A stretch of DNA of 61,636 bases, taken from positions 1-61,636 of the forward strand of contig SAQE01000036.1 in the NCBI GenBank assembly GCA_004020545.1. The letters are read 5' to 3'. The notes below the pieces were generated by a model. It searched no databases. It saw nothing but the letters and a program-made list of their open reading frames with translations, and had not been told where the DNA came from. Origin of the DNA: Mesorhizobium sp. (lineage in GTDB: Bacteria > Pseudomonadota > Alphaproteobacteria > Rhizobiales > Rhizobiaceae). Of the stretch, positions 4,524 to 23,621 are shown one piece after another. Positions within the stretch are counted from its first letter, which is position 1. Each line of letters opens with the position of its first letter. Made by a program: the position numbers and the translations under genes.

Positions 4524-6129
4524 GGGCCGGGCTCATATGCAGGGTTGGCTTGGCGAGGTCGCGCAGGATCTCGGCGGCGGCGTTGCGTCCGGGCGCGCCC
4601 ATGACGCCGCCGCCGGGATGGGTGGAGGAGCCGCACATGTAGAGCCCACTGAGCGGCGAGCGGTATTGGGCGTAGCCCGGCACCGGGCGGTTGAAGAGCA
4701 GCTGGTCGAAGGTGAGCTCGCCCTGAAAAATGTTGCCTTCGGTAAGGCCGACCTCGGCCTCGATCTCGCGCGGCGTACGCACCTCCATATGGACGATGCG
4801 GTCGCGGAAGCCCGGCGAGTATTCGTCGATCTGCGCAATCACGCTTTCGGCGAAGCCATCGCGGTCGGCGCCGGTCCAGTCGCGACCTTCTATCCTGGGC
4901 GGCGCGTATTGGACGAAGCAGCTCATGAAATGCTTGCCCGGCGGCGCCATGGTCGGGTCGAGCGTGGTCGGGATCATCATGTCGAGGAAGGGGTCGGCCG
5001 ACCAGCGTCCGGCCTTCCAGTCGTCATAGGCGCGCTCCATGCGCTCGATGGAATCGGTGAAGTGCATGTCGGCGCGGTAGACCGGCGAGTCCTTCGGCAA
5101 GGCCGGAAATTCGGGGAGCGAATCCAGCGCGATGTTGACCTTGCCGGACGAGCCGCGGATCTTGAAGTTCCTGACCCTGCGCAGGAAGATATCGGGCAGT
5201 TCCTTTTCCTCGACCAGCTTCAGGAAGGTGCGCTTGACGTCGGCGTTGGAGATGACGAGCTTGCCGTAGACCTCCTCGCCGCCGGCAAGCACCACGCCCT
5301 TGGCCTTGCCGTTCCTGATCAGCACATGGTCGACCTCGGCGCCGGTGCGGATGGTGCCGCCGGAGGCCTTGAAGGAGGCGGCGAGCGCCTTGGTGACGGC
5401 GCCCATGCCGCCGCGCGCATAGCCCCAGGCGCCGACCGAGCCGTCGACCTCGCCCATATAGTGGTGGAGGAGCACATAGGCCGTGCCGGGCGACATCGGA
5501 CCGAGCGCGGTGCCGATAATGCCGGAAAGCGCGAAGTTCGCCTTGATGACGTCGGTCTCGAAATACTCGTCGAGGAAATCCGAGATCGACATCGTCCAGA
5601 AGCGCAAGGTCAGCGCCATCTCCTCGGCCGTGAGACCGGCGAATTTCCGGCCGAGATAGAGCAGCTCGCCGAGGTCGCGCGGCTTGAAGCTGGTCGGGTC
5701 GGGCGCGGTGCGCATCAGCAGCGGCTGGATGAAGCGGCACTGTCTTGTGACGTCGCGCGAGTAGCGGTCATAGGCCTCGGCGTCGCGCTTGGAAAAGCGC
5801 GCGAACTCGCGGCGGTGCGCATCGTGGTCGCGGTAGTTGGCGAGGTAGTCGCCGTCTCGGGTGAAGACCGCGCCGCCCTCGTAGGAAATCACCTGCAGGC
5901 CGAAGCGCGGCAGCTCCAGGTCGCGCATGATCTCGGGCCGGAACAGCGAGCAGACATAGGAGCAGTTGGAATAGAGAAAGCCCGGCGTCAGCTCACGGCT
6001 GGTGGCGGCGCCGCCGACCCAGTCGTTCTTCTCGACCACCAGCACGTCGAGCCCGGCGCGCTGCAGGTAACAGGCGTTGACCAGTCCGTTGTGGCCGCCG
6101 CCGATGACGATCGCATCCCACGCCTTCAT
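4510..6129 (-). CDS. NAD(P)/FAD-dependent oxidoreductase, phytoene-desaturase-like (first of a tandem pair)
   Basis: A 539-residue paralogue of the next gene. It has the same layout: IGGGHNGLVNACYLQ for FAD at the N-terminus, VVEKNDWVGGAA, and the C-terminal LYMCGSSTHPGGGVMGAPG signature. It is the first gene of the minus-strand operon, and its control region is shared with the divergent methyltransferase and carries a TTGAA-N6-TTCAA operator. Tandem CrtI-like pairs of this size recur in proteobacteria without carotenoid genes and are poorly characterised. No membrane anchor is seen. A redox role in amine or lipid-like substrate catabolism is inference. Confidence 0.85.
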   Translation of the reverse strand: MKAWDAIVIGGGHNGLVNACYLQRAGLDVLVVEKNDWVGGAATSRELTPGFLYSNCSYVCSLFRPEIMRDLELPRFGLQVISYEGGAVFTRDGDYLANYRDHDAHRREFARFSKRDAEAYDRYSRDVTRQCRFIQPLLMRTAPDPTSFKPRDLGELLYLGRKFAGLTAEEMALTLRFWTMSISDFLDEYFETDVIKANFALSGIIGTALGPMSPGTAYVLLHHYMGEVDGSVGAWGYARGGMGAVTKALAASFKASGGTIRTGAEVDHVLIRNGKAKGVVLAGGEEVYGKLVISNADVKRTFLKLVEEKELPDIFLRRVRNFKIRGSSGKVNIALDSLPEFPALPKDSPVYRADMHFTDSIERMERAYDDWKAGRWSADPFLDMMIPTTLDPTMAPPGKHFMSCFVQYAPPRIEGRDWTGADRDGFAESVIAQIDEYSPGFRDRIVHMEVRTPREIEAEVGLTEGNIFQGELTFDQLLFNRPVPGYAQYRSPLSGLYMCGSSTHPGGGVMGAPGRNAAAEILRDLAKPTLHMSPAHDVI

Positions 6130-6226: not shown

Positions 6227-6242
6227 TTGAATGAATGTTCAA
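6227..6242. promoter_or_regulatory. Candidate TetR-family operator, site A (TTGAA-N6-TTCAA)
   Basis: The 16 bases TTGAATGAATGTTCAA lie between the divergent FAD oxidoreductase operon (start 6129) and the methyltransferase-regulator operon (start 6310). The outer arms are a perfect inverted repeat with the same spacing as sites at 14424 and 17353. It is well placed for autoregulation of the TetR gene at 7111 and control of both operons. Confidence 0.6.
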
Positions 6243-6309
6243 CAAATTGTGTTGCGTTTTCCCGTTGATGCGCTAGGCTTTACCCCGCATTTCTGGAGGC
6301 CGAGATCCG

Positions 6310-7104
6310 ATGATCGAAACGGCTGACGCCGAGCCGGAATATGACGACACCGCCATTCGCTTCCTGGAAGCGCTCTGGGGCGATGGCTATCTGTCGCCGG
6401 GCGGTCCCGAAGAAGTCGACCGCGTGGTCGAAGGCCTGGCGCTCAAGGGCAAGACGATCCTCGATATCGGCTGCGGCGCCGGCGGCATCACGCTGCATCT
6501 GGTCGCGCGCCATGGCGCGGCGCATGCGATCGGCTTCGACGTCGAACGGCCGGTGATCGAGGCGGCGAGGCGAGGGGTGGCCGTGCAGGGTCTCCAAGAC
6601 CGTGTCCGCTTCGTTCAGGCGCCGCCTGGACCGCTGCCGTTTGCCGACGCTTCCTTCGATGTCGTCTTCTCCAAGGATGCGCTGTTGCATGTGCCCGACA
6701 AAGACGCGCTGTTCGCAGAAATCTTCCGCGTGCTGAACCCGGGCGGCGTGTTCGCCGCGTCGAACTGGATGATCGGGCATGACGGCGAGCCGTCGCCTGA
6801 GATGAAGGCCTATGTCGCAGCCGAGGGGCTCTCCTTCGCCATGGCCTCGCCGGCGCGCTACGCCGAAGCGATGCGGCGCGCCGGCTTTACCGACATCACC
6901 ATACGCGACCGCAATCCATGGTACCGCGAGGTCGCGCGGGACGAATTGGCGCGCCTGAAGGGGCCGCTTTATCAACCCGTCGCCGCTGCGGTCGGCGCGG
7001 CCTATGTCGACAAGAACATCCGGACCTGGGAGGCGATGCAGAAGGTGCTTGACAGTGGCGAGCACCGCCCCACTCATCTGCGCGGTTGGAAGCCGGTTGG
7101 ATAG
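6310..7104 (+). CDS. Class I SAM-dependent methyltransferase, possibly N-methyltransferase type
   Basis: A 264-residue Rossmann methyltransferase. Motif I is [15 protein letters not shown] (about residues 53-67), the acidic ribose-binding residue lies in IGFDVERP, and the motif IV region is [13 protein letters not shown]. The N-terminal [12 protein letters not shown] segment resembles the corresponding stretch of phosphoethanolamine and sarcosine-type N-methyltransferases, so a small amine is a plausible acceptor. It is followed six bases later by the TetR regulator, so the two are probably one transcript under site A. A methylating enzyme in an otherwise demethylating island is notable. It may act in reverse flux balancing or on a regulatory ligand, which is speculative. 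Confidence 0.8.
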
Positions 7105-7110
7105 CCGGCG

Positions 7111-7797
7111 ATGCTGGAGACCGTCACACCCATGAAGACTGCAGAGGCCACCGACAATGCCGCTGAATCGCTGCGCAAAGGCGATGCCGAAAAGCGCGGC
7201 CGCAAGGCCTCGAAAGAGGTCCGGCAGCTGCAACTGATCGAGGCGACGATCGATTCACTGGCCAAGCGCGGCTATGCCGAAACGACGATGGCCAATGTCG
7301 CGGATGGCGCAGGCCTGTCGCGCGGCATCGTCAACTTCCATTTCGAGAGCAAGGAAAAGCTCCTGATCGCCACGCTGCAGCACATGTATGACGAGTATTC
7401 GGCGCATTGGCGCACAGCCTTGCAGAAGGCGGGCGACGATCCGGCGCGACAATTGCAGCATCTGGTGTGGGCCGATTTCGATCGATCGATCTGCAACAAG
7501 CGCAAGCTCGCGGCTTGGCTCGCCTTCTGGGGCGAAGCCAAGTCGCGGCCGATCTACCAGGCGCTGAGCAGCTCGCGCGACAATCACTACCAGCAGGTCT
7601 TCATCGATCTCTGCACGACGCTCAAACAGAGCGGCGGCTATGCCTATGAGCCCCAGGCCATTGCGCTAGCGCTCAGCGCCATGCTCGAGGGCCTGTGGCT
7701 GCGGCTGATGATGGGGACGGAGGACACCACGCGCGAGACCGCGCTGCAGGCGGCGAACGCGTTTTTGGCCGCCGCCTTCCCGAAACACTATGGCTAG
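7111..7797 (+). CDS. TetR/BetI-like transcriptional regulator
   Basis: A 228-residue TetR-family repressor. The N-terminal basic segment (RGRKASKEVR) precedes a canonical helix-turn-helix: TIDSLAKRGYAETTMANVA, then GLSRGIVNFHFESKEKLL. The C-terminal ligand domain resembles the BetI class (WLAFWGEAKSRP). BetI-type proteins bind choline-like quaternary amines. It lies among amine transport and oxidation genes, which carry the three shared palindromes, making it the natural candidate for their repressor. A second ATG at 7132 is an alternative start, and neither has a strong ribosome-binding site. Assignment of the operators to this protein is inference. Confidence 0.85.
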   Translation: MLETVTPMKTAEATDNAAESLRKGDAEKRGRKASKEVRQLQLIEATIDSLAKRGYAETTMANVADGAGLSRGIVNFHFESKEKLLIATLQHMYDEYSAHWRTALQKAGDDPARQLQHLVWADFDRSICNKRKLAAWLAFWGEAKSRPIYQALSSSRDNHYQQVFIDLCTTLKQSGGYAYEPQAIALALSAMLEGLWLRLMMGTEDTTRETALQAANAFLAAAFPKHYG

Positions 7798-7862
7798 CAA
7801 AAGCCGGGGGTTCGCAACAGCCGGCCTACAAGACCGGCAAGACCAAAAGAGGATGGAACAGC

Positions 7863-8945
7863 ATGAAGAATCTTAGCCGACGCCTGACTTTGACCTTGGC
7901 GCTTGGGAGTGCGATCGCGGCTTCGGCGGCGGCGTTCGCCGTCGCCGCCGACAAGGACCTGACCGTGTTCGACTGGTCCGGCTACGAGGACCCGAGCTTC
8001 CACGGCAAATATATCGAGAAGAACGGCGACTCGCCGAGCTTCGCCTTCTTTGGCGACGAGGATGAGGCTTTCGAAAAGATCCGCTCCGGGTTCAAGTCCG
8101 ATCTAGGCCATCCCTGCTCGCAAAGCGTGGTGAAGTGGCGCGAAGCGGGACTGCTGCAGCCGCTCGACACTTCGAAGATCACCGGCTGGAAGGACCTCAA
8201 TCCCGGCATCATGGCGATGAAGGCCCTCGCCACCACGCCCGACGGCAAGGCCTGGTTCATGCCCTGGGACTGGGGCGACACCCAGCTCACCTACAATTCC
8301 GATAAGATCGCCGAAAAGGACGTGCAGTCGCTGAAGGCTTTCGCCGATCCGAAATACAAGGGCAGGGTCTCGATCCCCGACAATGTCGACGACGCCTATG
8401 CGCTGGCCAGTCTCGCCATCGGGTTGAAAGATTGGACCAAGATGACGGACGAGCAGTTCAAGCAGGCGTCCGACTTCCTGCGCCAGGTGCACAAGAATGT
8501 CCGCTCCTACTGGACCGACACCACCGACATCGTGCAGCTGCTCTCGGGCGGCGAAGTCGACCTCGCCTGGGCCTGGAACGATGCGACGGTGCAGTCGGTC
8601 AAGGCCGGCGTGCCGATCAAGTCCAAGAAGGGCACCGACGAGGGCATCTCGACCTGGGTGTGCGGCTACGTGCTGTTCAAGGACGCGCCCGGCAACATCG
8701 ACAAGGCCTATGACTACCTCAACGCCGTCAACGATCCGGAAATCGCCAAGGTGCTGGTCAAGGACTGGGGCTACGGCCAGGCCAACGCCAAGGGCATGGC
8801 CGGCGTCGACCGGGCGGTGCTGAAGGAAAAGGGCTACGACAACGTGGAAAAGTGGGTCGACAAGACGCTGTTCCAGCAGCCGCTGCCTTCCGAGCTCAAG
8901 CTCAAGATGATCGCCGAGTTCGAGAAGATCAAAGCCGGCTATTGA
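7863..8945 (+). CDS. PotD/PotF-like ABC transporter substrate-binding protein (copy 1)
   Basis: A 360-residue periplasmic binding protein with a cleavable signal peptide (basic MKNLSRR, hydrophobic run, cleavage near AVA-AD about residue 30). The mature part begins DLTVFDWSGYEDP, the spermidine/putrescine-type fold. The start at 7863 is preceded by AGAGGA, and upstream in-frame codons lie inside the TetR gene and are rejected. It lies 65 bases after TetR and is followed by a close paralogue. Both probably feed the PotBCA-type permease on the opposite strand. A linear amine or betaine ligand is likely, but the exact one is unknown. Confidence 0.9.
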   Translation: MKNLSRRLTLTLALGSAIAASAAAFAVAADKDLTVFDWSGYEDPSFHGKYIEKNGDSPSFAFFGDEDEAFEKIRSGFKSDLGHPCSQSVVKWREAGLLQPLDTSKITGWKDLNPGIMAMKALATTPDGKAWFMPWDWGDTQLTYNSDKIAEKDVQSLKAFADPKYKGRVSIPDNVDDAYALASLAIGLKDWTKMTDEQFKQASDFLRQVHKNVRSYWTDTTDIVQLLSGGEVDLAWAWNDATVQSVKAGVPIKSKKGTDEGISTWVCGYVLFKDAPGNIDKAYDYLNAVNDPEIAKVLVKDWGYGQANAKGMAGVDRAVLKEKGYDNVEKWVDKTLFQQPLPSELKLKMIAEFEKIKAGY

Positions 8946-8965
8946 GCGCTGGCTTGAGGTCTCGC

Positions 8966-8984
8966 CCGCTCCGCATCCGAGCGG
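8966..8984. other. Intercistronic hairpin between the two binding-protein genes
   Basis: CCGCTC and GAGCGG enclose a 7-base loop in the 115-base spacer between the two binding-protein genes. There is no T-tract. Such hairpins commonly protect binding-protein messages from 3' decay; here the role is inferred. Confidence 0.3.
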
Positions 8985-9060
8985 ACGGGCGGGCTCGCCA
9001 AAGCTACTGAATTCTCCTAACTTCCGCCAATGCGTTCGCGACGGGGGAGTTTTTCGCGCC

Positions 9061-10137
9061 ATGAAATCCGTGTTTCGCCGTTGTGCGCTTGCGGCCGTCG
9101 TCACCGTCGGCGCCGGTGCGGCCTATGCGCTTGCCGAGGGCGGCGGCGATCTCGTCGTCTTCGACTGGTCGGGCTATGAGGACCCGCTGCTGCATCCGGC
9201 CTACACCGCCAAATACGGCGCCGAGCCGAGCTTCTCCTTCTTCGGCGATGAGGACGAAGCCTTCGAGAAGATGCGCGCCGGCTTCAAGGCCGACATCGCC
9301 CATCCTTGCTCGCAGAGCGTGGTGAAGTGGCGCGAGGCCGGCCTGCTGCAGCCGCTCGACACCTCGAAGATCGCCGGCTGGAAGGACCTCAATCCCGGCA
9401 TCATGGCGATGAAGGATCTTGCCACCACCGCCGACGGCAAGGCGTGGTTCATGCCCTTCGACTGGGGCAACACCTCGCTGCTCTATCGCACCGACAAGGT
9501 GACGGCGGAAGAGGCGCAATCGCTGAAAGTGTTCGCCGATCCCAAGTTCAAGGGCCGCGTCACCATCGGCGACAATGTCGACGATGCGTATGCGCTGGCA
9601 AGCCTGGTCATCGGGCTGAAGGACTGGACCAAGATGACCGACGAGCAGTTCAGCCAAGCTTCCGCCTTCCTGCGCGACGTGCACAAGAACATCCGCTTCT
9701 ACTGGACCGACGACACCGACCTCAACCAGGCCTTCACCGGCAACGAGGTCGATCTGGTCTGGGGCTGGAACGAGACCTATGTGACGCTGAAAGGACAAGG
9801 ACTGCCGATCGAGATGAACCGCAACACCAAGGAAGGCCTGTCGACCTGGGTGTGCGGCTATGTGCTGATGAAGGACGCGCCGGGCAAGCTCGACCAGGCC
9901 TATGATTTTCTGAACGCCGTCAACGCGCCCGACGTTTCGGAGTATATGGTGAAAACCTTCGGCTACGGCCACGGTAACAATGCCGGCATGGCGGCGATGG
10001 ACCGGAAGCTGCTCACCGACCGCGGTTTCGACAATCTCGACAAGTTCCTCGATAAGACACTGTTCCAGCGGCCGGTCGCGCCGGAGCTCAAGCAGCGGAT
10101 GGTTGCCGAGTTCGAGAAGATCAAGGCCGGCTATTGA
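9061..10137 (+). CDS. PotD/PotF-like ABC transporter substrate-binding protein (copy 2)
   Basis: A 358-residue paralogue of the preceding gene. It has a signal peptide (MKSVFRRCALAAVVTVGAG, cleavage about residue 25) and a mature start DLVVFDWSGYEDP. Long stretches are identical to copy 1 (for example SFFGDEDEAFEKMRAGFKAD and LLQPLDTSKI), so the pair arose by tandem duplication. The ligand-contacting C-terminal half differs more, for example in the region after residue 220, suggesting different specificities. The stop codon overlaps the TTG start of the amine oxidase, linking uptake with oxidation. Confidence 0.9.
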   Translation: MKSVFRRCALAAVVTVGAGAAYALAEGGGDLVVFDWSGYEDPLLHPAYTAKYGAEPSFSFFGDEDEAFEKMRAGFKADIAHPCSQSVVKWREAGLLQPLDTSKIAGWKDLNPGIMAMKDLATTADGKAWFMPFDWGNTSLLYRTDKVTAEEAQSLKVFADPKFKGRVTIGDNVDDAYALASLVIGLKDWTKMTDEQFSQASAFLRDVHKNIRFYWTDDTDLNQAFTGNEVDLVWGWNETYVTLKGQGLPIEMNRNTKEGLSTWVCGYVLMKDAPGKLDQAYDFLNAVNAPDVSEYMVKTFGYGHGNNAGMAAMDRKLLTDRGFDNLDKFLDKTLFQRPVAPELKQRMVAEFEKIKAGY

Positions 10138-11432
10138 GCAGCAAAACCGAAAGGACCGACGTCATAGTCGTCGGCGCCGGTTTTACCGGCCTGTCGGCTG
10201 CGCTAGAATTGAAGCGCGCCGGCGTCGATTTCCTCGTCCTGGAAGCACGCGACCGCGTCGGCGGCCGTGTGGAAGCCATGCGAAACGGGCTCGGTGAGCT
10301 GATCGACAGCGGCGGCCAGTTCTTGTGCGAGGACATGCCGGAACTGATGGCGTTGGCCAAGGCGCGCGGCAAGACATTCGTCGAGACCTATGTCGATGGC
10401 GAATTCATTACCCACCCATCGATGTCCGTCGAGGAAGCCGAGCGGACCTACCGGATCGCGATGGCGATCCGCGAGCGCATGAACGGGATCGAGCCAGACG
10501 ATCCCTCGATCACCGGGCTGACCGTCGCGACATGGCTCGAACGCCAGAAGGACACGGCCGACGCCAAGGCCGCCTTTCGTTCGATGATCGAGGGCCTGTG
10601 GTGCCTGGCGCTGGACAAGGTGCCGTTGTGGCACCTGATCGACAACGATCGCCGCATCACCAACGAGGTGTTCGAACTGCAATATTTCTTGCGCGAAACC
10701 ATGCAGTCGCTGGCCGACGATCTGGCGGGTGATCTCGGCGACCGGCTGCGGCTCAATGAGGCGGTGACGCGCATCGAGCATGGATCGGATGGCGTTCGCG
10801 CAACCACCGCCGGGGACATCATCGAGGCGCGCGCAATGCTGGTCGCGCTGCCGCCCGCAACGGCCTCGAAGGTGGATTTCGCACCTGCCTTGCCACCGGC
10901 CTTGGCGAAGGCCTTAGGCGTTTGGGAGAGTGGCGCGGTGATCAAGATCCTGGTGCGCTATGCCAGGCCATTCTGGCGCGAGCGGAATCTGCGCGGCATG
11001 GTCATGTGGCGCGATCAGCCGGGGCTGTTTGCCTGCGACGCCAGCAAGGATCTCGACCATGCCGCGCTTATCGTCTTCATCGGCGGGCCTCTTGCGCTGC
11101 GCTGGCACGAACTGGACCAGACGGCGCTGCGCGCCGAGGTGACGGCGAGGCTGGTGAAAGCGCTCGGCCCGGAAGCGGCGGACATCGTCGATTTCAGCTC
11201 ACGCGACTGGACGCATGACCGTTGGAGCGGCGGCGCCTACAGCGACCTCATCATCGACGCCACGGCGAGGAACGCCGAGCGCACCATCCTTGCCGGCGCG
11301 CCGCCGGTCTATTTCTCGGCTTCGGAACTCTCGCCGTCTTTTCCCGGCTATGTCGAAGGCGCGATCGTAGCAGGGCGTATCGCCGCCAGGAAAATTCAGT
11401 CGGCCATCGCCACCAGCGCCTCGGGATCGTAG
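10134..11432 (+). CDS. Flavin-containing amine oxidase family protein
   Basis: A 432-residue flavoprotein of the monoamine oxidase family. The FAD motif VVGAGFTGLSAALELKRAG is followed by VLEARDRVGGRVEAM, a diagnostic stretch for amine oxidases, and the C-terminal FAD segment includes SFPGYVEGAIVAG. It starts at TTG overlapping the upstream stop (TTGA), so translation is coupled to the second binding protein. It probably oxidises a primary or secondary amine brought in by the adjacent importer, giving an aldehyde. The class III aminotransferase nearby is an alternative route for amine removal. Its 3' end overlaps the convergent ATPase gene by 37 bases. Confidence 0.88.
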   Translation: MSSKTERTDVIVVGAGFTGLSAALELKRAGVDFLVLEARDRVGGRVEAMRNGLGELIDSGGQFLCEDMPELMALAKARGKTFVETYVDGEFITHPSMSVEEAERTYRIAMAIRERMNGIEPDDPSITGLTVATWLERQKDTADAKAAFRSMIEGLWCLALDKVPLWHLIDNDRRITNEVFELQYFLRETMQSLADDLAGDLGDRLRLNEAVTRIEHGSDGVRATTAGDIIEARAMLVALPPATASKVDFAPALPPALAKALGVWESGAVIKILVRYARPFWRERNLRGMVMWRDQPGLFACDASKDLDHAALIVFIGGPLALRWHELDQTALRAEVTARLVKALGPEAADIVDFSSRDWTHDRWSGGAYSDLIIDATARNAERTILAGAPPVYFSASELSPSFPGYVEGAIVAGRIAARKIQSAIATSASGS

Positions 11433-12514
11433 GCGAGGCGGATCGGCGCGCCGACCGGAATGTCGTCGGCGCCGAAATCGTTGGTCTCGGTCACCGAGAG
11501 CGGTTTTTCCAACCCCGGGATCTCGACGATCAGATGCGTGATCTCGCCGAAATAGTGGCGCTCGACCACCTTGCCGGCGACCTCGAACTTTGCCGACGCA
11601 TTGTCCCACAGGACACGCAAACGCTCGGGCCGAATGCCAAGGGTCGCCGCGCCGCCATTGCGCACGAAGGCTTTCGGCTTGTCGGTTTTCACGCGGCCGA
11701 AGCCAAGCGTGTCGACAACCAGCGAAGCGCCGTTCTCCGCGACGATCTGGGCTTTCACAAAATTCATCCCGCCGAGGAAGTCGGCGACCTGGCGGTTGAC
11801 CGGGCGCTGGTAGATTTCCTTGGGCGAAGCGACCTGGGCGATGCGGCCGCCAAACATGACGGCGATACGGTCCGACATCGCCAAAGCCTCATACTGGTCG
11901 TGGGTGACAAGCACGAAGGTGATGCCGACGGCCTGCTGCAGGCGGCGCAGCTCGACCTGCATCTGCTCGCGCAGCTTCTTGTCGAGCGCCGAGAGCGGCT
12001 CGTCGAGGAGCAGCACCTTCGGGCGCATGACCAGCGCGCGGGCAAGCGCGACGCGCTGACGCTGGCCGCCGGAGAGCTCGGTCGCGCGCCTCTTGCCGAG
12101 GCCGGTCAGCGAGACCTGCGCCAGCGCCTCCTCGACGCGGCGTTTTTCTTCGCCGCCCTGCAGCTTCAGGCGCTTCAGCCCATAGGCGACATTCTGCTCG
12201 ACATTGAGGTGCGGGAAGATCGCATAGCTCTGGAAGACCATGTTGGTCGGGCGGCGATTGGCGGGGATGCCGTCCATCGGCTGGCCATCGACGGCGATCG
12301 AGCCGCTGGTCGGCGTGTCGAAGCCGGCGATCATGCGCAAAAGCGTGGTCTTGCCGCAGCCGGAAGGCCCGAGCAGCGAGAAGAACTCGCCTTCCCGGAT
12401 GTTGAGCGAGGCATCGTCCAGCGCCTTGAAGGCGCCGTAGCTTCGGGTGACATCGCGGATCTCGATCATGACGCGGTCCGATTGGGTGCGCTCCGGCTGG
12501 ACCCGCTCAAGCAT
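11396..12514 (-). CDS. potA: PotA-type ABC transporter ATP-binding protein
   Basis: A 372-residue ATPase of a spermidine/putrescine-type importer. Walker A is GPSGCGKTT, the Q-loop lies in MVFQSYAIFPHL, the signature is [15 protein letters not shown], and Walker B is VLLLDEPLSALD. The C-terminal TOBE domain follows (ATLGIRPERLRVL). The chosen ATG at 12514 forms an 8-base overlap, ATGCTTGA, with the stop of the upstream permease; the longer frame upstream is rejected. It energises the two permeases upstream and probably works with the binding proteins on the plus strand. The symbol denotes family, not proven substrate. Confidence 0.88.
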   Translation of the reverse strand: MLERVQPERTQSDRVMIEIRDVTRSYGAFKALDDASLNIREGEFFSLLGPSGCGKTTLLRMIAGFDTPTSGSIAVDGQPMDGIPANRRPTNMVFQSYAIFPHLNVEQNVAYGLKRLKLQGGEEKRRVEEALAQVSLTGLGKRRATELSGGQRQRVALARALVMRPKVLLLDEPLSALDKKLREQMQVELRRLQQAVGITFVLVTHDQYEALAMSDRIAVMFGGRIAQVASPKEIYQRPVNRQVADFLGGMNFVKAQIVAENGASLVVDTLGFGRVKTDKPKAFVRNGGAATLGIRPERLRVLWDNASAKFEVAGKVVERHYFGEITHLIVEIPGLEKPLSVTETNDFGADDIPVGAPIRLAYDPEALVAMAD

Positions 12515-13328
12515 AGAGGCCTCCCTCGTTCTGGGTGCGTCTGGCCGCGCGGCGGCGCAGGATTTCGGCAACGGTCATCAGCACGAAGGACGCCACCAGC
12601 AGCAAGGTGCCAAGCGCCAGCACGCCGGGGAGCTTGGCCGCAAAGCGGAGCTGGCCCCAGATATAGATCGGCAGCGTCGCTTCGGTGCCGGTGAGGAAGA
12701 AGGCGATGATGAACTCGTCGAGCGAGATGGTGAAGCAGACGAGCAGGCTGGAGATGATCGCCGGCGCGACCATCGGCAGCGTCACACGCCGGAAGGTACC
12801 GAAGGCGCTCTCGCCGAGATCGGCGGAAGCCTCCTCGAGGCTGCGGTCGAAACCTTCGAAACCGGAGGTCAGCACCGTCATCGAATAGGGGATGCAGACC
12901 AGCACATGGCCGAGCACCACGGTGAACAGCGACAGGCTGAGGCCGAGCTGCAGCATCACCAAGAGCATCGAAATGGCGACGATCACCTCGGGCAGCACCA
13001 GCGGCGCCATGATCAACCCGTTGATGGTGCGGCGGCCGGGATAGCGGTAGCGTGTGATCGAACGGGCGGCGAGGATGCCGAGCACGGTCGACAGGATCGA
13101 GGCCGAGACGCCGACCAGAAGACTGTTCCAGGTGGCGTCGATCAGCGCCGGCGTGCGCGGCAGGTCCTCATACCAATGAAGCGTGACGCCGGAGAGCGGG
13201 AATTTCGGCGTCGCCGCGGTGTTGATCGAGAAGATCGGCAGGAAGATCACCGGCAAATAGAGAAAGGCGACGTAGAGGATGGCGTAACTCGTGAGCCAGC
13301 TTGGCAGGAAACGTCGCATCGCCGTCAT
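12507..13328 (-). CDS. potC: PotC-type ABC transporter permease
   Basis: A 273-residue inner-membrane permease with about six hydrophobic segments and the cytoplasmic EAA loop (EEASADLGESAFGTFRRV) that docks with the ATPase. The chosen ATG at 13328 overlaps the upstream permease stop by four bases (ATGA), which is stronger evidence than any upstream codon in the long open frame. It pairs with the next permease to form the translocation channel. Confidence 0.88.
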   Translation of the reverse strand: MTAMRRFLPSWLTSYAILYVAFLYLPVIFLPIFSINTAATPKFPLSGVTLHWYEDLPRTPALIDATWNSLLVGVSASILSTVLGILAARSITRYRYPGRRTINGLIMAPLVLPEVIVAISMLLVMLQLGLSLSLFTVVLGHVLVCIPYSMTVLTSGFEGFDRSLEEASADLGESAFGTFRRVTLPMVAPAIISSLLVCFTISLDEFIIAFFLTGTEATLPIYIWGQLRFAAKLPGVLALGTLLLVASFVLMTVAEILRRRAARRTQNEGGLYA

Positions 13329-14242
13329 CGCGCCAGCCTCTGGATAGCGCGAATGACCAGCACGGTGGCGCCGGCCATTAGCGAGACGATGACCATGGTG
13401 GTGACCGAGAGCGCGGCGCCGAGCGGCCAGTTCGACGCCTTGCCGAACTGCGCCTGGATGGCGTTGGCGATCATGACGCCGTCCTTGCCGCCGACCAGCT
13501 TCGGCGTGACATAATCGCCGACGGTCGGGATCATGACGATCAGCGCGGCCGAGATGACGCCGGGCGCCGACAGCGGCAAGGTCACGCGCAGGAAGGAGCG
13601 CAGCGGCCCGTCGCCGAGGTCGGTCGCCGCTTCGACAAGCGTGCGGTCGACCTTCTCCAGCGAAACGAAGATCGGCAGGATGGCGAAGGTCGCCCAAGCG
13701 TGGGTGAGCGTGATGATGACGGCGCTGGAATTGTAGAGCAGCGCCGTCGACGGCTCGTGGATGATGCCGAGCCCTATCAGTCCGGAATTGAGCACGCCGT
13801 TATAGCCGAGGATCACCTTCCACGACATCACGCGCAGCAGGTAGCTGGTCCAGAACGGGATGGTGATGAGGAACAGCCAGAGACTCTTGTGGCGGCCGCC
13901 ATGGAAGGAAATGAAATAGGCGATCGGGTAGGCGAGGATCACTGTCAGCGCACTGACCGTCAGCGAGATGTAGAGCGAGCGCCAGAGAAGGTCGCGGTAG
14001 ATCGGCTCGGTGAGCGCGATCCGATAGTTCTCCAGCGTGAATGTGTGATCGATGGTGAGATAGTCCTGCGTCCAGAAGGAATGGGCGATGACGACCAGGA
14101 TCGGCAGGACGAGAAGGATGAGCGCGTAGAGGAAGGTCGGGCTGATCAGCGCAAAGCCCTGGACGGCTTCCGATTGCAGAAGGGGACTTCGTCTGGCTCC
14201 CGCCACGCGCAGCGGCGGCGACCCTTCCGCAGCCACCGTCAT
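13325..14242 (-). CDS. potB: PotB-type ABC transporter permease
   Basis: A 305-residue permease with an extended N-terminus and about six membrane segments. The EAA-loop is VEAATDLGDGPLRSFLRV. The start at ATG 14242 (MTVAAEG) is chosen; an in-frame upstream extension of 28 residues looks non-coding. It is the first gene of the minus-strand importer operon. Its control region, 14243-14526, is shared with the divergent aminotransferase and holds operator site B, so uptake and transamination can be co-regulated. Confidence 0.87.
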   Translation of the reverse strand: MTVAAEGSPPLRVAGARRSPLLQSEAVQGFALISPTFLYALILLVLPILVVIAHSFWTQDYLTIDHTFTLENYRIALTEPIYRDLLWRSLYISLTVSALTVILAYPIAYFISFHGGRHKSLWLFLITIPFWTSYLLRVMSWKVILGYNGVLNSGLIGLGIIHEPSTALLYNSSAVIITLTHAWATFAILPIFVSLEKVDRTLVEAATDLGDGPLRSFLRVTLPLSAPGVISAALIVMIPTVGDYVTPKLVGGKDGVMIANAIQAQFGKASNWPLGAALSVTTMVIVSLMAGATVLVIRAIQRLAR

Positions 14243-14392
14243 TGCAGCGCTCCGGGCGTGATTGCAGTTGCTGGCTCGGACTGTCCCGCCATGCGGCCTT
14301 CCCATTAACCGGCGCCGTGTTCCCAATTCTTATGCCTCGAGCAATCGCTCACTGGCTTGCCGGCTTTCTTTCATCATGAGCGTATCCGCTGA

Positions 14393-14439
14393 TTGAAATC
14401 AAGCGCTATTTCTGTAATATTGATTGAACGGACATTCAA
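14393..14439 (+). promoter_or_regulatory. Promoter and TetR-type operator, site B, before the aminotransferase
   Basis: A sigma-70-like promoter TTGAAA (14393-14398), 16-base spacer, TAATAT (14415-14420) faces the aminotransferase gene. Three bases after the -10 lies TTGAACGGACATTCAA (14424-14439), which shares the TTGAA-N6-TTCAA form and the CATTCAA half of site C. A repressor here would sit on the transcription start. It lies in the divergent region with the potBCA operon. I did not find an equally clear promoter on that side. Confidence 0.6.
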
Positions 14440-14526
14440 AATGAAGCGACGAAAAGCCGATTTTCAAGGGTTTGCCGCTTTGTTTCTGTCCAAGAAAAAT
14501 CGGCAACCGAACGATGCGAGGCTAAC

Positions 14527-15936
14527 ATGGCGGCTCAAAGCAAGATCAGCGAGATCATCGAGGACGGCGACGACGCGGTCGAGCTTGCCAAGCGTCATCT
14601 CGTCCAGCCTTGGCCCTATGCCGGCTCGGTCGGCGCCGAGGCGCGGGCGCTGATCGGCGGAGGCGACGGCATCTACGTCACCGACGCTTCCGGAAAGCGG
14701 CTGATCGACGGGCCGGCCGGCATGTGGTGCATCAATGTCGGCCATCGCCGCGAGGAGCTGGCGAGGGTGATGTACGACCAGGCAATGGCGCTCTCCTACA
14801 ACACGCCCTGGTACACGATGAATGCGCCGTCGGCCGAGCTCGCCAGGCGCATCGCCGACGCCGCTCCCGGCGACCTCAGCCATACCTTCTTCACCACCGG
14901 CGGCTCGTCGGCTGTTGAGACGGCGCTGCGCTTCATGCAGTTCTACAACAACGTCCGCGGCCGCCCGGAGAAGAAGCTGATCCTCAGCCGTGGCGGCGCC
15001 TATCACGGCTCGACCTATCTGTCGGCCTCGCTTAACGGCCGTCCGCGCGACCGCGACTGGATGGACGGCGCCGACGAACTGGTGGTGAAGCTATCTTCGC
15101 CCGATCCGTTCCGGCGGCCGAAGGACATGAGCATCGCCGCCTTCGCCGATTTCCTCGTCGACCAGTTCCGTGACACCGTCGCGCGCGTCGGCGCCGATCG
15201 GATCGGCGCCTTTGTCGGCGAGCCGGTGCAAGCGTCCGGCGGCGTTGTCGTACCGCCTGACGGGTATCTCAAGCGCATCCGCGAGATCTGTCGCGAGAAC
15301 GATATCCTTTTTGTCTCCGACGAGGTGGTGACCGGCTTCGGGCGGCTCGGGCACGTCTTTGCCTCGGGCGACGTGTTCGGTATCGACCCGGACATGATCA
15401 CCTTCGCCAAGGGCGTCACCTCGGGCTATTTCCCGCTCGGCGGCGTCATCATCTCGGAGCGGCTGCTGGAGGAGCTGCGCCGGTCCAACCATCCCGACGC
15501 GCTGTTCGGCCATGGCTTGACCTACACCAGTCATCCGATCGGCTGTGCGGTGGCGTTGAAGAACCTCGACCTCCTGGAAGGAGGCGTGCTTCAGCATGCA
15601 CGCGAGATCGCGCCCTATTTTCAGGCGCGGCTGAAGACGCTGGAGGAGCTGCCGCTGGTCGGCGAGGTGCGCGGCGTCGGCCTGATGGCTTGCGTCGAAT
15701 GCGTCGCCGACCGCGAGAGCAAGAACCCGCTACAGCTCGACAAGGATGTCGGAAAACGCATCGACGCGCATTGCCACGAGCTCGGCTTGCTCGTCCGGCC
15801 GCTGATCAACATGTGCGTGATGTCGCCGCCGCTGATCATCAGCCGCGAGCAGGTCGACGACATGGTCGCCATCCTGCGCGAGGGGATTTCGCGGACCATG
15901 GATGATCTCAGGAAAGAAGGGGTCTGGCGGGGGTGA
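14527..15936 (+). CDS. Class III aminotransferase (omega-amino acid/amine aminotransferase)
   Basis: A 469-residue PLP enzyme of fold type I, class III. Recognisable parts are the FFTTGGSSAVETALRF cofactor-phosphate segment, the conserved aspartate in FVSDEVVTGFGRLG, and the Schiff-base lysine K295 in FAKGVTSGYFPLGG. Family members move the amino group from omega-amino acids, diamines or polyamines to pyruvate or 2-oxoglutarate. The start ATG follows a GAGG site. Preceded by operator site B and divergent from the amine importer, it is probably the catabolic transaminase for the imported compound. Exact substrate is unknown. Confidence 0.9.
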   Translation: MAAQSKISEIIEDGDDAVELAKRHLVQPWPYAGSVGAEARALIGGGDGIYVTDASGKRLIDGPAGMWCINVGHRREELARVMYDQAMALSYNTPWYTMNAPSAELARRIADAAPGDLSHTFFTTGGSSAVETALRFMQFYNNVRGRPEKKLILSRGGAYHGSTYLSASLNGRPRDRDWMDGADELVVKLSSPDPFRRPKDMSIAAFADFLVDQFRDTVARVGADRIGAFVGEPVQASGGVVVPPDGYLKRIREICRENDILFVSDEVVTGFGRLGHVFASGDVFGIDPDMITFAKGVTSGYFPLGGVIISERLLEELRRSNHPDALFGHGLTYTSHPIGCAVALKNLDLLEGGVLQHAREIAPYFQARLKTLEELPLVGEVRGVGLMACVECVADRESKNPLQLDKDVGKRIDAHCHELGLLVRPLINMCVMSPPLIISREQVDDMVAILREGISRTMDDLRKEGVWRG

Positions 15937-15943
15937 CGTTCTT

Positions 15944-16123
15944 CCTTCTCCCCGTTTCACGGGGAGAAGGTGCCCGAAGGGCGGATGAGGGGCGGCGCCG
16001 ACCTTGGCGATTGGCCGTGGCCGCCGGACTTCAGAAGCTATCGCCCGGCTGAAACGATAATCTCATAAGCCGGCGCTGCCCTCACCTGCCTGCCGGCATC
16101 CTCTCCCCGTAGAACGGGGAGAG
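15944..16123. repeat. Palindromic intergenic repeat element, type 2
   Basis: Two related hairpins bracket about 130 bases: CCTTCTCCCCGT-TTC-ACGGGGAGAAGG (15944-15970) and CTCTCCCCGT-AGA-ACGGGGAGAG (16101-16123). Inner flanks (GGTGCCCGAAGGGCGGATGAGG and the CCTCACCTGCC side) are partly complementary, so the whole folds back on itself. It fills the gap between two convergent genes, where it may act as a bidirectional stop although no T-tract is present. It differs from the type 1 repeat. Confidence 0.75.
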
Positions 16124-16131
16124 GGACGCTC

Positions 16132-17334
16132 TCATCCCCTCGACCTCAGCGCGTCGTTCAATCCCCACATGTCCTTTTCCTCGGGCGCCGTCTCCAGGTT
16201 CAGCACCGGGACCTGCCTGCGCAGGTGGTCGTGATGGGTGCGCACGCCATATTCGAGGTCGGAGAGGTAGAACCCTCCGAAGGCTTCCGACAGCATGGAT
16301 TCGTTCGACCAGACCGAAAGCTGGACATCCTCGTTCATCGTGTCGCGGTCGATGCGGTAGGCGAGGTAACGCGCCGCCGCCTGCTCCCTGGTCTCGTCCG
16401 GATAGCGGTAGACCGCACCGCGCAGCAGCGTCTCGCCGGTCGACAGCGGGAACTCCTGATAGAACTGCACCGATTCCGGCATGATCGACAGCGCATTGTT
16501 GGGGAAGATGCCGTAATAGATCCAGGCCCGGCGCAGGTGCTCCGGCAAGTGCGCCGGCTCGGGCGCGATCCTGATGTACTGGCCGACGCTCCAGCGCCGT
16601 CCGGCATGCGGGTTGTAGGTGGCGAAGGACCGCGACACGCCATTGATGAAAGGCTCGTCGAAATAGGTCGCGCCATAGAGGTCCTGCAGCGCCGGATGCG
16701 CCATGGCGACGTGGTAGCCTTCATTGTCGACGTCGCGCACCGACTTCCAGTTGACCGGCGATTTCTGCGTCCAGATGCCCCAGGATGGCACCATGTCGGC
16801 AACGTGATAGTGGGCGATCTCCGCCTCGATCGGCTTCAAGAGCTCGGCTACCGAAGGCTGCGGGCCACCCTTGCGGAAACGAATGAAGATGAAGCCCATC
16901 CAGATTTCGAGGTCGAGCGGCATCAGGCCGAACTCGGTCTTGTCGAGCTCGGGGAAAGAGCGCGGGCGCGCCGCGCCGCGCAGCGTGCCGTCGAGATTGT
17001 AGACCCAGCCGTGGAACGGGCAGACCAACGCGTTCTTGCAGGTGCCCCGGCTGTCGGCGACGACGCGGCTGCCGCGATGACGGCACATGTTGTTGAAGGC
17101 GCGCACGACGCCGTCCTTGCCGCGCACGATCAGCGCGCGCTCGCCGATAACGTCCATGGTCAGATAATCGCCTGCATTCGGCACGTCGGAGACGTGGCCG
17201 GCGATCTGCCAGTGATTGCGGAAGACGTATTCCTTCTCGAGTTCGAGAAGCGCGTTGGAGTGATAACTCCACCCCGGCAAGCCCCGCCGGTCCCAATCGT
17301 TGGGGATCGCCACGTCACGGAGGTGCGGGTTCAT
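16132..17334 (-). CDS. Rieske [2Fe-2S] non-haem iron oxygenase, alpha subunit
   Basis: A 400-residue terminal oxygenase. The Rieske cluster ligands are C84-x-H86 and C105-x2-H108 (CRHRGS and CPFHGW). The mononuclear iron site is E-x2-H208-x4-H213 (NEGYHVAMAH), followed by the C-terminal catalytic domain. The pattern matches demethylases of quaternary amines such as glycine betaine or stachydrine oxygenases as much as ring-hydroxylating dioxygenases. The island context favours the former. No reductase gene is adjacent, so electrons must come from a partner elsewhere. ATG 17334 is chosen: the upstream ATG at 17364 lies inside the operator. Confidence 0.9.
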   Translation of the reverse strand: MNPHLRDVAIPNDWDRRGLPGWSYHSNALLELEKEYVFRNHWQIAGHVSDVPNAGDYLTMDVIGERALIVRGKDGVVRAFNNMCRHRGSRVVADSRGTCKNALVCPFHGWVYNLDGTLRGAARPRSFPELDKTEFGLMPLDLEIWMGFIFIRFRKGGPQPSVAELLKPIEAEIAHYHVADMVPSWGIWTQKSPVNWKSVRDVDNEGYHVAMAHPALQDLYGATYFDEPFINGVSRSFATYNPHAGRRWSVGQYIRIAPEPAHLPEHLRRAWIYYGIFPNNALSIMPESVQFYQEFPLSTGETLLRGAVYRYPDETREQAAARYLAYRIDRDTMNEDVQLSVWSNESMLSEAFGGFYLSDLEYGVRTHHDHLRRQVPVLNLETAPEEKDMWGLNDALRSRG

Positions 17335-17352
17335 GGAAGTGCTCTTTTTTTG

Positions 17353-17396
17353 TTGAATGATCATTCAATAAAAGCATATTTTATATTGAAATGCAA
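17353..17396 (-). promoter_or_regulatory. Promoter and TetR-type operator, site C, before the Rieske oxygenase
   Basis: Reading toward the oxygenase: TTGCAT (17391-17396), a 17-base spacer, then TTTTAT (17368-17373), immediately followed by the perfect palindrome TTGAATGATCATTCAA (17353-17368). The operator overlaps the end of the -10 and the expected start of transcription, the same layout as site B. It is the most symmetric of the three sites and probably the best binding site. Confidence 0.65.
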
Positions 17397-18356: not shown

Positions 18357-20447
18357 TCAGCCTTCCACGGCCGCCGCCTGATCGGCGATAGCGGAGAGGA
18401 CCCCGCGGACGTCAAGCGTCGAGAACGGCTTCTCCAGGATCTGCGGGCGCTGGTGCGGCGGCAGCGCCTCGATCTCCGCCTTGGCGCCGATAAGATCGCC
18501 GGTGACCAGCACAAAGCGTTGCGCCATCCCCGGCCGTTCGGCCAGCAGCTCGCGGTAGATCGATATGCCGCTGGTGCCCGGCATGCGCAGGTCGGAAAAG
18601 ACGATGTCCGGCGGCATCTGCCCGCTCAGCACCTCGCCGGCGGACGTCCAGCTTGCGACGACGCGCGATTTCACCGCCATCAGCTCCAATATGTCGGAGA
18701 GAGAAGCGGCGACGTCAGGCTCGTCGTCGATGATCAGCGCATGGCGCAGCCCGCTCGAGCGTGCCGGACCTTCGCCGGTCTTTGCCATATCGCCGGCGAT
18801 CGCCGGCAGTTGGACGACGAAGCGCGCGCCGTGCGGCTGCACTTCCTCGAACCAGATGTTGCCGTTGTGGCGCTCGACGATCGACTTCGAGATAGAAAGG
18901 CCGATGCCGGTACCGACGCCGACGGGCTTGGTGGTGAAGTAGGATTCGAAGATGCGCGAGCGGATCGCCTCGGGAATGCCGGGACCATTGTCCTCGACGG
19001 AGAATCCGGGATTGCCGCGCTCGCTGCGAAAGGTCCGCACCTTGATGCGGCGCTCGCCGGTGACGCCGGCCAGCGCATGCTGGCTGTTGATGAGGAAGTT
19101 GGCCGCGACTTGCGTGACATGGTCGGCGTCCGCCATGGCGAGCAGCGGGCCATTGGCGAAGTCGGTGTCGATGATGATGCCGCTGGAGCGCGCGCCATAG
19201 GCGGTAACCTCAAGCGCCGAGCGGATCACATGGTTGAGGTCGGTTTCGGCCTGCTCGGTCGGATGCAGGCGCACCATCGACAGGAAGCTCTTGACGATGC
19301 GGCCGCAGCGTTCGGCGGCTGCGCGCACCTTTTCGGCGCGCACCTTGGTCTGTGGGTCGGTCGCGAATTCATGCAGCAGCGTCGATTGCGCGACCACCAC
19401 CGCGAGCGGGTTGTTGAGCTCGTGCGAAACGCCGGCAAGCAACGAGCCCATCGCCGCCATCTTTTCGTTCTGGTGCAGCTTCTCGCGCTGGCGGTTGATC
19501 TCTTCTTCGGCGTGCAGCTTCTCGCGCAGGTCGCGGATCGAGCCGAAGATCAGGCGGCGATCGGCAACACGCATCTCGGTCGCCGTCAGTTCGATGGGGA
19601 ACACCTCGCCGGCGGCATTCTGGGTAACGGTCTCCATCCGCTGGCCGACCATCGGCGCGCCGCGGCCCGACATGTAGTCGGCGCCCGAGGCATAGCCCTT
19701 GCGATAGTAGATCGGCACGATGGTGTCGAGCAGGTCCTTGCCGAGGATGTCAGAGCGCGGGAAGCCGAACATCTTCTCGGCCGCGGGATTGAATTCGATG
19801 ATCGAGCCCGCCTCGTCGATGACGATGATGGCGTCGAGCGAAGCCTGCAGCATGGTGCGGCGGATGACCTCGCTGGCATGCGCCTCGGAAGGGGAGTGTT
19901 CGATGGCGTCGCCGATGGCCAAAGCGATGATGTGCAGCGTCGCCTCTTCCTCGTCGGTCCATTCGCGTTCGGCGACGCAGTCGTTGACCGCCAGCGTGCC
20001 CCATAGATGGCCGTGGGCGAAGACCGACACGGACAGGAAGGACTTGATGTTCTGCTTCTCGAAATCGGCCCGCAGGAAACCATCCAGATTGCGCGTGTGG
20101 CCGGCAAAGACCTTGCCCTGGCGCTCGTCCTCCTGCAGCCGCTCCAGCAGCGGATCGGAGTTGATGATCGACTGCATGATCACCGTGGGCGATGCCAGCT
20201 CGCCGCCGAATGCAGGGTCGATCCAGTAGGCCGAAACGGATTGCGCAAAGCCCTGGCCGGGCAGTTCGCGCAGACGAAACAGAATGCCGCGCTGACAATC
20301 CATGGCCCGGCAGAGCGTTTCCAGTATGCCGTCCATCTCGCGCTGCCAATCGCCCGCCTCGCGCAAACGGCGAACGACGTGGACGGCCGCCATCGCGGCG
20401 CCTTGGCGGGAGCCGTGCATGTCCATCCGTGCGGCCTCAGCTGTCAT
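18357..20447 (-). CDS. Hybrid sensor histidine kinase (GAF-PAS-HisKA-HATPase-REC)
   Basis: A 696-residue cytoplasmic hybrid kinase. In order: a GAF-like domain (about 20-185), a PAS domain (about 200-300, DAIIVIDEAGSIIEFNPAAE), a linker coiled coil, HisKA with phospho-acceptor H342 in VSHELNNPL, an ATPase domain with the N and G boxes (NFLINSQHA, GTGIGLSISK), and a C-terminal receiver with phospho-acceptor D619 in FSDLRMPG and conserved lysine in LEKPFS. No membrane span is visible, so the GAF domain senses something internal. The OmpR-type regulator lies 148 bases upstream on the same strand and is the likely partner. Confidence 0.88.
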   Translation of the reverse strand: MTAEAARMDMHGSRQGAAMAAVHVVRRLREAGDWQREMDGILETLCRAMDCQRGILFRLRELPGQGFAQSVSAYWIDPAFGGELASPTVIMQSIINSDPLLERLQEDERQGKVFAGHTRNLDGFLRADFEKQNIKSFLSVSVFAHGHLWGTLAVNDCVAEREWTDEEEATLHIIALAIGDAIEHSPSEAHASEVIRRTMLQASLDAIIVIDEAGSIIEFNPAAEKMFGFPRSDILGKDLLDTIVPIYYRKGYASGADYMSGRGAPMVGQRMETVTQNAAGEVFPIELTATEMRVADRRLIFGSIRDLREKLHAEEEINRQREKLHQNEKMAAMGSLLAGVSHELNNPLAVVVAQSTLLHEFATDPQTKVRAEKVRAAAERCGRIVKSFLSMVRLHPTEQAETDLNHVIRSALEVTAYGARSSGIIIDTDFANGPLLAMADADHVTQVAANFLINSQHALAGVTGERRIKVRTFRSERGNPGFSVEDNGPGIPEAIRSRIFESYFTTKPVGVGTGIGLSISKSIVERHNGNIWFEEVQPHGARFVVQLPAIAGDMAKTGEGPARSSGLRHALIIDDEPDVAASLSDILELMAVKSRVVASWTSAGEVLSGQMPPDIVFSDLRMPGTSGISIYRELLAERPGMAQRFVLVTGDLIGAKAEIEALPPHQRPQILEKPFSTLDVRGVLSAIADQAAAVEG

Positions 20448-20595
20448 CGTCGAACGTCATCCCCGGGGCCATATCGGTAAACCATGAAATCCAGCACACA
20501 AGCCCCGAAAATCGATCACGGTTTTGCGCGGGCATGCGCTGGATCGGAATGCTACAGCGTCCTTCACCTATCCGGAAGGATGCGCGGCGCCGGAG

Positions 20596-21324
20596 TCAAT
20601 TGCCGTCGCTTGTCGGCAGCGAGAAGATATAGCCTTCGCCGCGCACCGTACGCAGGAATTTCGGGTTGGCCGGATCGGTTTCGATCTTCTTCCTGAGACG
20701 CATGATGCGGATATCGACCGCGCGCGACGATTCCGGGTCTTCCACGAAGCCGATCGCCTCCGAGATCGCCGCCCGCGTCAGGAGCCGGTTGGCGCGGGTG
20801 AGGAAAACCTCCAGCACGTCGAACTCGCTCTTGGCCATCTCGATGACCGCGCCGTTGGCGCCGGTGACCAGCCTGCCGTCGAAATCGGCCTGGAAGCCGC
20901 CGAAGTTCATGAAGCGGCGCGTGCCGGCTTCGGCCTTCGCGGCCTGAGGTGCTGCCGGCTGCGGCACGCGGCGCAGCACGCTGCGGACCCTCGCCAGCAC
21001 TTCGCGCAATTCGTAGGGCTTGACGATGTAGTCGTCGGCGCCGAGTTCCAGGCCGACGATGCGGTCGAGCGCGGTGCCGGCGGCGGTGGCATAGATGATG
21101 CCGATCTGGGTCTTCGAGCGCAGCCAGCGGCCGAGCGACAGGCCATCCTCGCCGGGCATGGCAATGTCGAGTATGGCAAGGTGGAAGGACTGCGCCTCAA
21201 GCAGGCTACGCGCCGCCGCGGCATTCTCGGCCGTGGCGACGTCATAGCCGTTTGCCCCGAGATATTCGGCAACCGCCTCCCTCAGGTCCGGCTCGTCCTC
21301 GACGACGATGATGCGCGCCTTCAC
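20596..21324 (-). CDS. OmpR-type response regulator
   Basis: A 242-residue two-domain regulator. The receiver has the acidic pocket VVEDEP, phospho-acceptor D53 (AILDIAMPGEDG) and the lysine in YIVKPYE. The C-terminal winged helix ends with the usual RTVRGEGYIF wing. The GTG at 21324 gives the family-standard N-terminus (MKARIIVVEDEP) and has a GGGAG site ten bases upstream. An ATG at 21372 would add 16 residues with no ribosome-binding site. It is upstream of the hybrid kinase and divergent from the pseudo-receiver gene. Confidence 0.87.
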   Translation of the reverse strand: MKARIIVVEDEPDLREAVAEYLGANGYDVATAENAAAARSLLEAQSFHLAILDIAMPGEDGLSLGRWLRSKTQIGIIYATAAGTALDRIVGLELGADDYIVKPYELREVLARVRSVLRRVPQPAAPQAAKAEAGTRRFMNFGGFQADFDGRLVTGANGAVIEMAKSEFDVLEVFLTRANRLLTRAAISEAIGFVEDPESSRAVDIRIMRLRKKIETDPANPKFLRTVRGEGYIFSLPTSDGN

Positions 21325-21417
21325 AATGGTCTCGCTCCCGCTTTCAGCGGAAAGTAGATTGGGTATAAACATGATGTCCAGCGCTCATCTCGAGTTGTCT
21401 CTGGCGGGGTGAAGAAA

Positions 21418-22104: not shown

Positions 22105-22168
22105 GGCGAGGGCGGCCGGGTCATTTCCTTGATCTGGCATCGGATCCCCCCAAACCGATGCTTCGTGC

Positions 22169-22309
22169 TCAGCGCACCACGAGGACCGAGGGACCTGAGG
22201 GCAAGTCGGCGCTGGCGGTGATTTCGACATGGGCGCGCTCCTTCAAGAGCACGGTTGCGAGCGCGGCAAAGCCGAGCAGCCCTTGCGCGTAGAGCAATGT
22301 GGAAAGCAC
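22169..22309 (-). CDS. Small single-span membrane protein, possibly frameshifted at its start
   Basis: From GTG 22309 the frame encodes 46 residues: a hydrophobic segment (LLYAQGLLGFAALATVLL) then a short polar tail ending in VLVVR. It reads as a plausible small membrane protein. A better start, ATG 22334 with an AGGGG site seven bases upstream, is in another frame. It would join this frame if one A of the AAAA run at 22319-22322 were absent, giving 54 residues. Either a GTG-started gene, a sequencing error, or a recent frameshift. Confidence 0.4.
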   Translation of the reverse strand: MLSTLLYAQGLLGFAALATVLLKERAHVEITASADLPSGPSVLVVR

Positions 22310-22366
22310 GGAAGCTGCAAATCTGGTGTTCATGTCATAACCCCTAAATCGATATGTATCGGTGCT

Positions 22367-23596: not shown

Positions 23597-23621
23597 TTTG
23601 GAGCGGTTCCCTGAATCTGTT

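Follow-up and report, generated by a model that had tools for sequence, protein, structure and literature searches.

The 61,636-base stretch of DNA analysed here ("the window"), from contig SAQE01000036.1 of Mesorhizobium sp., contains a catabolic gene cluster with three copies of the palindrome TTGAA-N6-TTCAA and one gene for a BetI-like regulator of the TetR family (7111-7797, plus strand). Based on the sequence, we think it very probable that this regulator represses the cluster and itself through the three palindromes and is released by the substrate of the pathway, i.e., that these genes are one local regulon. A first-pass annotation of the window had proposed a single amine-catabolic regulon under the TetR protein, and our analysis supports that reading as far as sequence allows. 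The gene at 7111 is indeed the sole TetR gene in the stretch, and it tracks the sites across genomes. We infer that the TetR protein is what binds the sites, that it acts as a repressor, that an amine releases it, and where the transcription units lie.

In the mechanism that we propose, a dimer of the TetR protein would bind each 16-base-pair palindrome, about TTGAAYGNNYRTTCAA, at the promoters or just past them, and would block RNA polymerase at five units. Three sites can cover these five likely units, whose boundaries come from gene direction and spacing. Site 1 would control FAD2-FAD1-GcvT on one side and, on the other, a unit that runs from a methyltransferase gene through tetR and the genes for two solute-binding proteins (SBP1 and SBP2) to an amine oxidase gene. 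Because tetR lies inside this second unit, the TetR protein would repress itself. Site 2 would control both the ABC (ATP-binding cassette) transporter and an aminotransferase, which it could do because the minus-strand transporter diverges from the aminotransferase gene, and site 3 would control a Rieske oxygenase. The repressor would be released by one of the pathway's substrates or intermediates, which is probably a quaternary amine or an N-methylated one; we suggest release by a pathway compound by analogy to what the TetR family does.

The three palindromes noticed in the first-pass annotation are where it had placed them, each 16 base pairs long, and its claim that every one is in the control region of a catabolic or transport unit is borne out by their positions relative to the neighbouring genes. 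None has a strand. Site 1 (6227-6242, TTGAATGAATGTTCAA) is between the divergent genes for FAD2 (minus strand) and the methyltransferase (plus strand), so that the regulator's own unit has a palindromic operator in its control region. Site 2 (14424-14439, TTGAACGGACATTCAA) is between the divergent genes for an ABC permease (minus strand) and the aminotransferase (plus strand). Site 3 (17353-17368, TTGAATGATCATTCAA) overlaps the ATG at 17364 with which a longer open reading frame (ORF) begins, but the conserved start of the Rieske oxygenase is at 17334 (giving a protein of 400 amino acids), so site 3 is in the leader of this gene and ends 18 bases ahead of the conserved start codon.

The window has three copies of the motif, as compared to a mean of 0.01 in shuffled sequences, and none of 100 shuffles gave three. 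The genome that contains the window (6,993,374 bases) has 11 copies, versus 2 for the pattern read backwards. The core that is common to the three sites (YTGAAYGNNYRTTCAR) occurs in this genome at these three places alone (1 strand-hit for the backwards control). If one mismatch to TTGAAYGNNCRTTCAA is allowed, then there are four places (control, 1): the three sites and one more, which is inside the ORF of a predicted protein of the solute-binding type.

Non-conservation had been named beforehand as one of the observations that would refute this regulon, and when we looked in related genomes, we found that the sites are conserved before the orthologues. To find close relatives, species genomes were scanned with an alignment of 24 orthologues of the TetR protein. 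This gave 524 loci, of which the best 80 were retained; 77 of these carry the name Mesorhizobium. We considered a site testable where its flanking gene could be located and enough DNA was available, which left out 5 loci for site 1, 5 for site 2 (in both cases, some were short and some were decayed, with the flanking gene missing), and 26 for site 3. Site 1 is kept in 74 of the 75 testable loci, site 2 in 73 of 75, and site 3 in 52 of 54. Two of the five missing sites are in the same locus (L056) and the others are in L099, L115, and L118, while L125 was not testable at any site; all five of these clusters have lost parts. Even so reduced, three of these genomes (with L099, L118, and L125) have a single site genome-wide, directly before a relocated Rieske orthologue (91-92% identity). 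The genome with L056 retains site 2, and a genome search found no site at all in the one with L115. Two Mesorhizobium genomes with complete chromosomes (NZ_CP034448 and NZ_CP015318; loci L085 and L109) have exactly three matches each, all of them in the cluster, and no matches to the control. Finally, in two loci without the methyltransferase gene in between (L040 and L041), the site sits between FAD2 and tetR itself.

Across the wider family, we sampled 101 genomes from 100 genera and counted a site if it lay upstream of the orthologue and its ten outer bases had no more than one mismatch. By our chosen cut-off, 24 of the 101 genomes have an orthologue of the TetR protein. The same 24 have the Rieske oxygenase, as does one fragmented assembly (G089), and 21 of the 24 have FAD2. 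The Rieske gene has such a site upstream in 23 of 25 genomes (15 exact; missing in G046 and G087), FAD2 in 19 of 21 (9 exact; missing in G046 and G075), and the aminotransferase gene in 21 of 22 (15 exact; missing in G069). The last count leaves out G089, because of an artefact at a contig edge, and two genomes with no aminotransferase orthologue in the stretch examined (G015 and G087). Upstream sequences resampled with an order-1 model gave sites at rates of 1.2% for the Rieske gene and 0.9% for FAD2, the two genes that this null covers. Also, the 24 genomes with the TetR protein average 5.0 strand-hits to the motif each (control, 0.29), with at least one hit in 23 of them. The other 77 genomes average 0.91 (control, 0.25), with at least one hit in 30.

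Several observations weigh against our proposal. First, some cluster-bearing genomes lack sites where we would expect them. In G087, TTGACTGATCAGTCAA lies upstream of the gene for the TetR protein (48% identity), and the stretch around it yielded no site of the TTGAA type. The cluster in G046 has two TetR genes, and neither FAD2 nor the Rieske gene has a site there. The site before FAD2 in G075 is found only at two mismatches, and G069 lacks the site before its aminotransferase gene. Four of the decayed Mesorhizobium clusters (L099, L115, L118, and L125) keep a full-length match to the TetR protein (at about 10001-10681 in these loci) with no such site beside it. Second, the motif occurs without the regulator, in the 30 of 77 genomes mentioned above, and of nine loci that we inspected with the motif outside of the main clusters, five (L131-L135) have it before a BetI-like gene. 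(The regulator in L135 is BetI-like but below the cut-off.) In L131, L132, L133, and L135, a gene for a choline-binding protein is on the other side of the motif. Because the motif is found before BetI-like genes elsewhere, the motif alone does not name its binder.

As to the exceptional clusters themselves, the second TetR protein of G046 is also BetI-like (35% identity), and its gene (L140:8444-8992) adjoins FAD2; CTGAGTAATCACTCAA is found before the Rieske gene. The four decayed Mesorhizobium clusters also retain a full-length match to the amine oxidase. In two relatives from the Rhodobacterales (L229 and L230), the control regions of the cluster show no TTGAA site. In L230 (Parasedimentitalea, NZ_CP033222.1), TTTGAGCGCTCAA takes its place before FAD2 and the solute-binding protein gene (11842-11983 and 20361-20508).

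Its sequence places the regulator among BetI-like TetR proteins, but it is not BetI. It has the TetR DNA-binding domain (PF00440, 47.8 bits over a cut-off of 24) and the BetI-type C-terminal domain (PF13977, also over its cut-off). It narrowly passes NF001978 (126.9 over 118) and fails the cut-off for BetI itself (TIGR03384, 124.5 under 201.3). In a tree, the 24 cluster regulators are separated from 74 BetI proteins by a branch with 100/100 support, from a bootstrap that had not settled. None of betA, betB, betT, or choX was found among the proteins scanned around the regulator. We also built a structure model for it, which was poor (mean predicted local distance difference test score of 49.4), and we did not use it. 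Our search of open-access literature, by title or the start of the abstract, found nothing that names the cluster or the regulator and did not yield the substrate. The regulator is apparently undescribed.

Could the sites instead be read by the genome's true BetI, or by another BetI paralogue, with the cluster as part of the response to choline or betaine? This would fit with the occurrence of TTGAA-N6-TTCAA upstream of true BetI in 6 of 74 genomes of the family, which implies that BetI-type proteins can go with this motif, and in one genome (G002) both regulators are present with the motif at both. We consider it very unlikely. The true BetI of the Mesorhizobium genome is encoded at C134 (253.8 bits; a second match over the cut-off is at C113), with TTGATTGATCCGTCAA located 53 bases ahead of the matched start and no TTGAA-N6-TTCAA upstream. 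The same holds more broadly: in 19 of the 22 cluster-bearing genomes whose BetI we examined, including this one, the best palindrome ahead of betI is a TTGAT- or TTGAC-type one. (Of the other three, G002 has TTGAA, and none was found in G030 or G031.) And the motif is about five times denser in the 24 genomes with the cluster's TetR protein than in the other 77.

A comparison of recognition helices points the same way. Of the 77 genomes that gave a match, 74 contributed one BetI gene each; G027, G072, G079, and second paralogues were left out. Our operator search was confined to the frame TTGA-N8-TCAA and could miss other frames. Within this frame, 64 of the genes have some other palindrome, 6 have TTGAA-N6-TTCAA, and none was found for 4. 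At the SxA position of the recognition helix, 68 of the BetI proteins have alanine, and none of these has the TTGAA-N6-TTCAA operator (59 have TTGAY...RTCAA, 5 have another, and none was found for 4). All six BetI with that operator have glycine, and so do the 24 cluster regulators, which for this comparison were all assigned to the TTGAA operator class without individual measurement of their operators. This pattern fits the cluster's TetR protein, and not BetI, as the reader of TTGAA. The six BetI with glycine form one group in the tree, and the cluster regulators form another, far away, so there are three lineages only to compare.

It is tempting to go further and to suggest that BetI-type paralogues are kept apart by one base per half-site and one residue of the recognition helix, with Gly72 for TTGAA...TTCAA and alanine for TTGAY...RTCAA, and that this lets the cluster regulator control, free of cross-talk with choline metabolism, a widespread pathway for an N-methylated amine that has so far gone undescribed. 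We view this as possible but rather doubtful. As a general code it is weakened by G087, whose regulator has glycine and TTGACTGATCAGTCAA, so glycine is not sufficient. Similarly, none of the glycine proteins shown from outside the family has TTGAA-N6-TTCAA; for example, the E. coli protein has glycine and goes with ATTGATTGGACGTTCAAT.

Another alternative is that the TetR protein activates transcription from these sites or acts in both directions. The first-pass annotation had placed two of the sites right after a plausible -10 element, and this holds by eye for sites 2 and 3, where most aligned rows have an A+T-rich, -10-like hexamer within a few bases of the operator. Site 1 is unclear, as we could not place any promoter there. 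A weak promoter-like pair, TTGAAA-17-AATATT (14393-14421, plus strand), ends 2 bases before site 2, and by eye a similar sequence is at the same place in most rows. Support from the scan itself is weak (5 matches in the region versus 2.3 in shuffles, with a standard deviation of 1.6). The outer bases of the operators are conserved at 0.95-0.97, as compared to 0.61-0.65 for the flanks, which is partly by construction because only rows with a found site were aligned. The lack of a clear overlapping promoter at site 1, which in most rows is flanked by CTGTCCAG- and TTGC-like blocks, would suit an activator, while sites 2 and 3 are, weakly, in a blocking position. Also, BetI is a choline-responsive repressor in several bacteria, according to PMC12442346. 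Activation or dual regulation seems to us very unlikely. Last, we can practically dismiss the idea that the palindromes are chance or structural repeats of no regulatory meaning: the genome does have 11 copies versus 2 backwards, but the recurrence of sites before the same genes in many genomes contradicts it.

If the TetR protein is the repressor, then what does it control? Gene families were assigned with profiles from Pfam and NCBIfam. On the minus strand to the left of site 1 are FAD2, a flavin adenine dinucleotide (FAD)-dependent oxidoreductase that resembles CrtO and phytoene desaturase (4510-6129; PF01593; NF045689, 298.8 of 1000); FAD1, a second and CrtO-like FAD-dependent oxidoreductase (2949-4523; PF01593); and a GcvT-like folate-dependent protein (1502-2737; PF01571), whose best sequence match among solved structures is a trimethylamine N-oxide demethylase (9q5a). 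To the right, on the plus strand, are the S-adenosylmethionine-dependent methyltransferase (6310-7104; PF13649), tetR, SBP1 (7863-8945, with the start at a chosen in-frame ATG; PF13343, and PotD-like below the cut-off), SBP2 (9061-10137; PF13416), both of the polyamine type, and a flavin amine oxidase that resembles monoamine oxidases (10134-11432; PF01593) and matches the amine oxidases 8i6i and 6lqc. The transporter's ATPase (11396-12571; PF00005 and PF08402) and two permeases (ORF extents 12507-13697 and 13325-14326; both PF00528) are on the minus strand. Beyond site 2 is the class III aminotransferase (14527-15936, plus strand; PF00202; NF005447, 720.4 over 618), and before site 3 is the Rieske oxygenase (16132-17334, minus strand; PF00355 and PF00848), which matches carnitine monooxygenase (6y9c). 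The units listed in the first-pass annotation all stay in the regulon, to which we add the monoamine-oxidase-like enzyme, the two binding proteins, and the minus-strand ATPase and permeases.

It is only from the enzyme families that we infer an amine as the class of substrate. A methylated amine is suggested by the combination of a Rieske oxygenase of the carnitine or betaine type, a GcvT-like protein, FAD enzymes, an amine oxidase, an aminotransferase, and a polyamine-type importer. In Rhizobium sp. SL42 (NZ_CP063398.1, L228:961-8751), a copy is near genes for a MocE-type ferredoxin, an FAD oxidoreductase, iolG, and sugar transport, which looks like a neighbourhood for the use of rhizopine. 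The Rieske matches in L291 (G011) and L294 (G054) each show one internal TGA. In the window, GC-rich inverted and direct repeats of one element lie between the aminotransferase and Rieske genes (15943-16126), and the cluster is followed on the minus strand (18357-26705) by a hybrid histidine kinase, a response regulator, and an AcrB-type pump.

How does this compare to known systems? The regulator shares with BetI the PF13977 domain, a score over the NF001978 cut-off, and a 16-base-pair palindrome with the same outer TTGA...TCAA that is found before betI in the family. It differs in being under the TIGR03384 cut-off, in its own group in the tree, in its targets, in the absence of bet or cho neighbours, and in the fifth base of the operator, which is A for the cluster and T for BetI of the same genome. 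PMC8249747 lists BetI of E. coli as a single-target regulator and PMC4560400 includes BetI in a predicted network for S. meliloti. A close parallel is Ruegeria pomeroyi, another alphaproteobacterium with two BetI-type regulators that have different boxes and targets. There, both BetIs serve choline-O-sulfate and choline, with ATTGACG*CGTCAAT as the box of BetI1 (both points from PMC12442346), whereas in this Mesorhizobium the paralogue belongs to another cluster. The Rieske oxygenase is of the same general type as GbcA and CntA (the glycine betaine and carnitine monooxygenases), but it reaches just 129.5 of the 670 needed for GbcA, and its partners are CrtO-like FAD enzymes, an aminotransferase, and a polyamine-type importer.

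It is well supported that this cluster is a local regulon of an ordinary kind, with an operator that differs from that of the paralogous BetI. Marker genes of this catabolic cluster turn up in 21 to 25 of the 101 family genomes sampled, and the cluster now has a candidate regulator, an operator that is conserved, and a closed set of member genes. The TetR protein and BetI of one genome are a pair of paralogues in which to study how specificity diverges within the TetR family. And the operator and the regulator open a route, by reporter screening, to the inducer and hence to the substrate.

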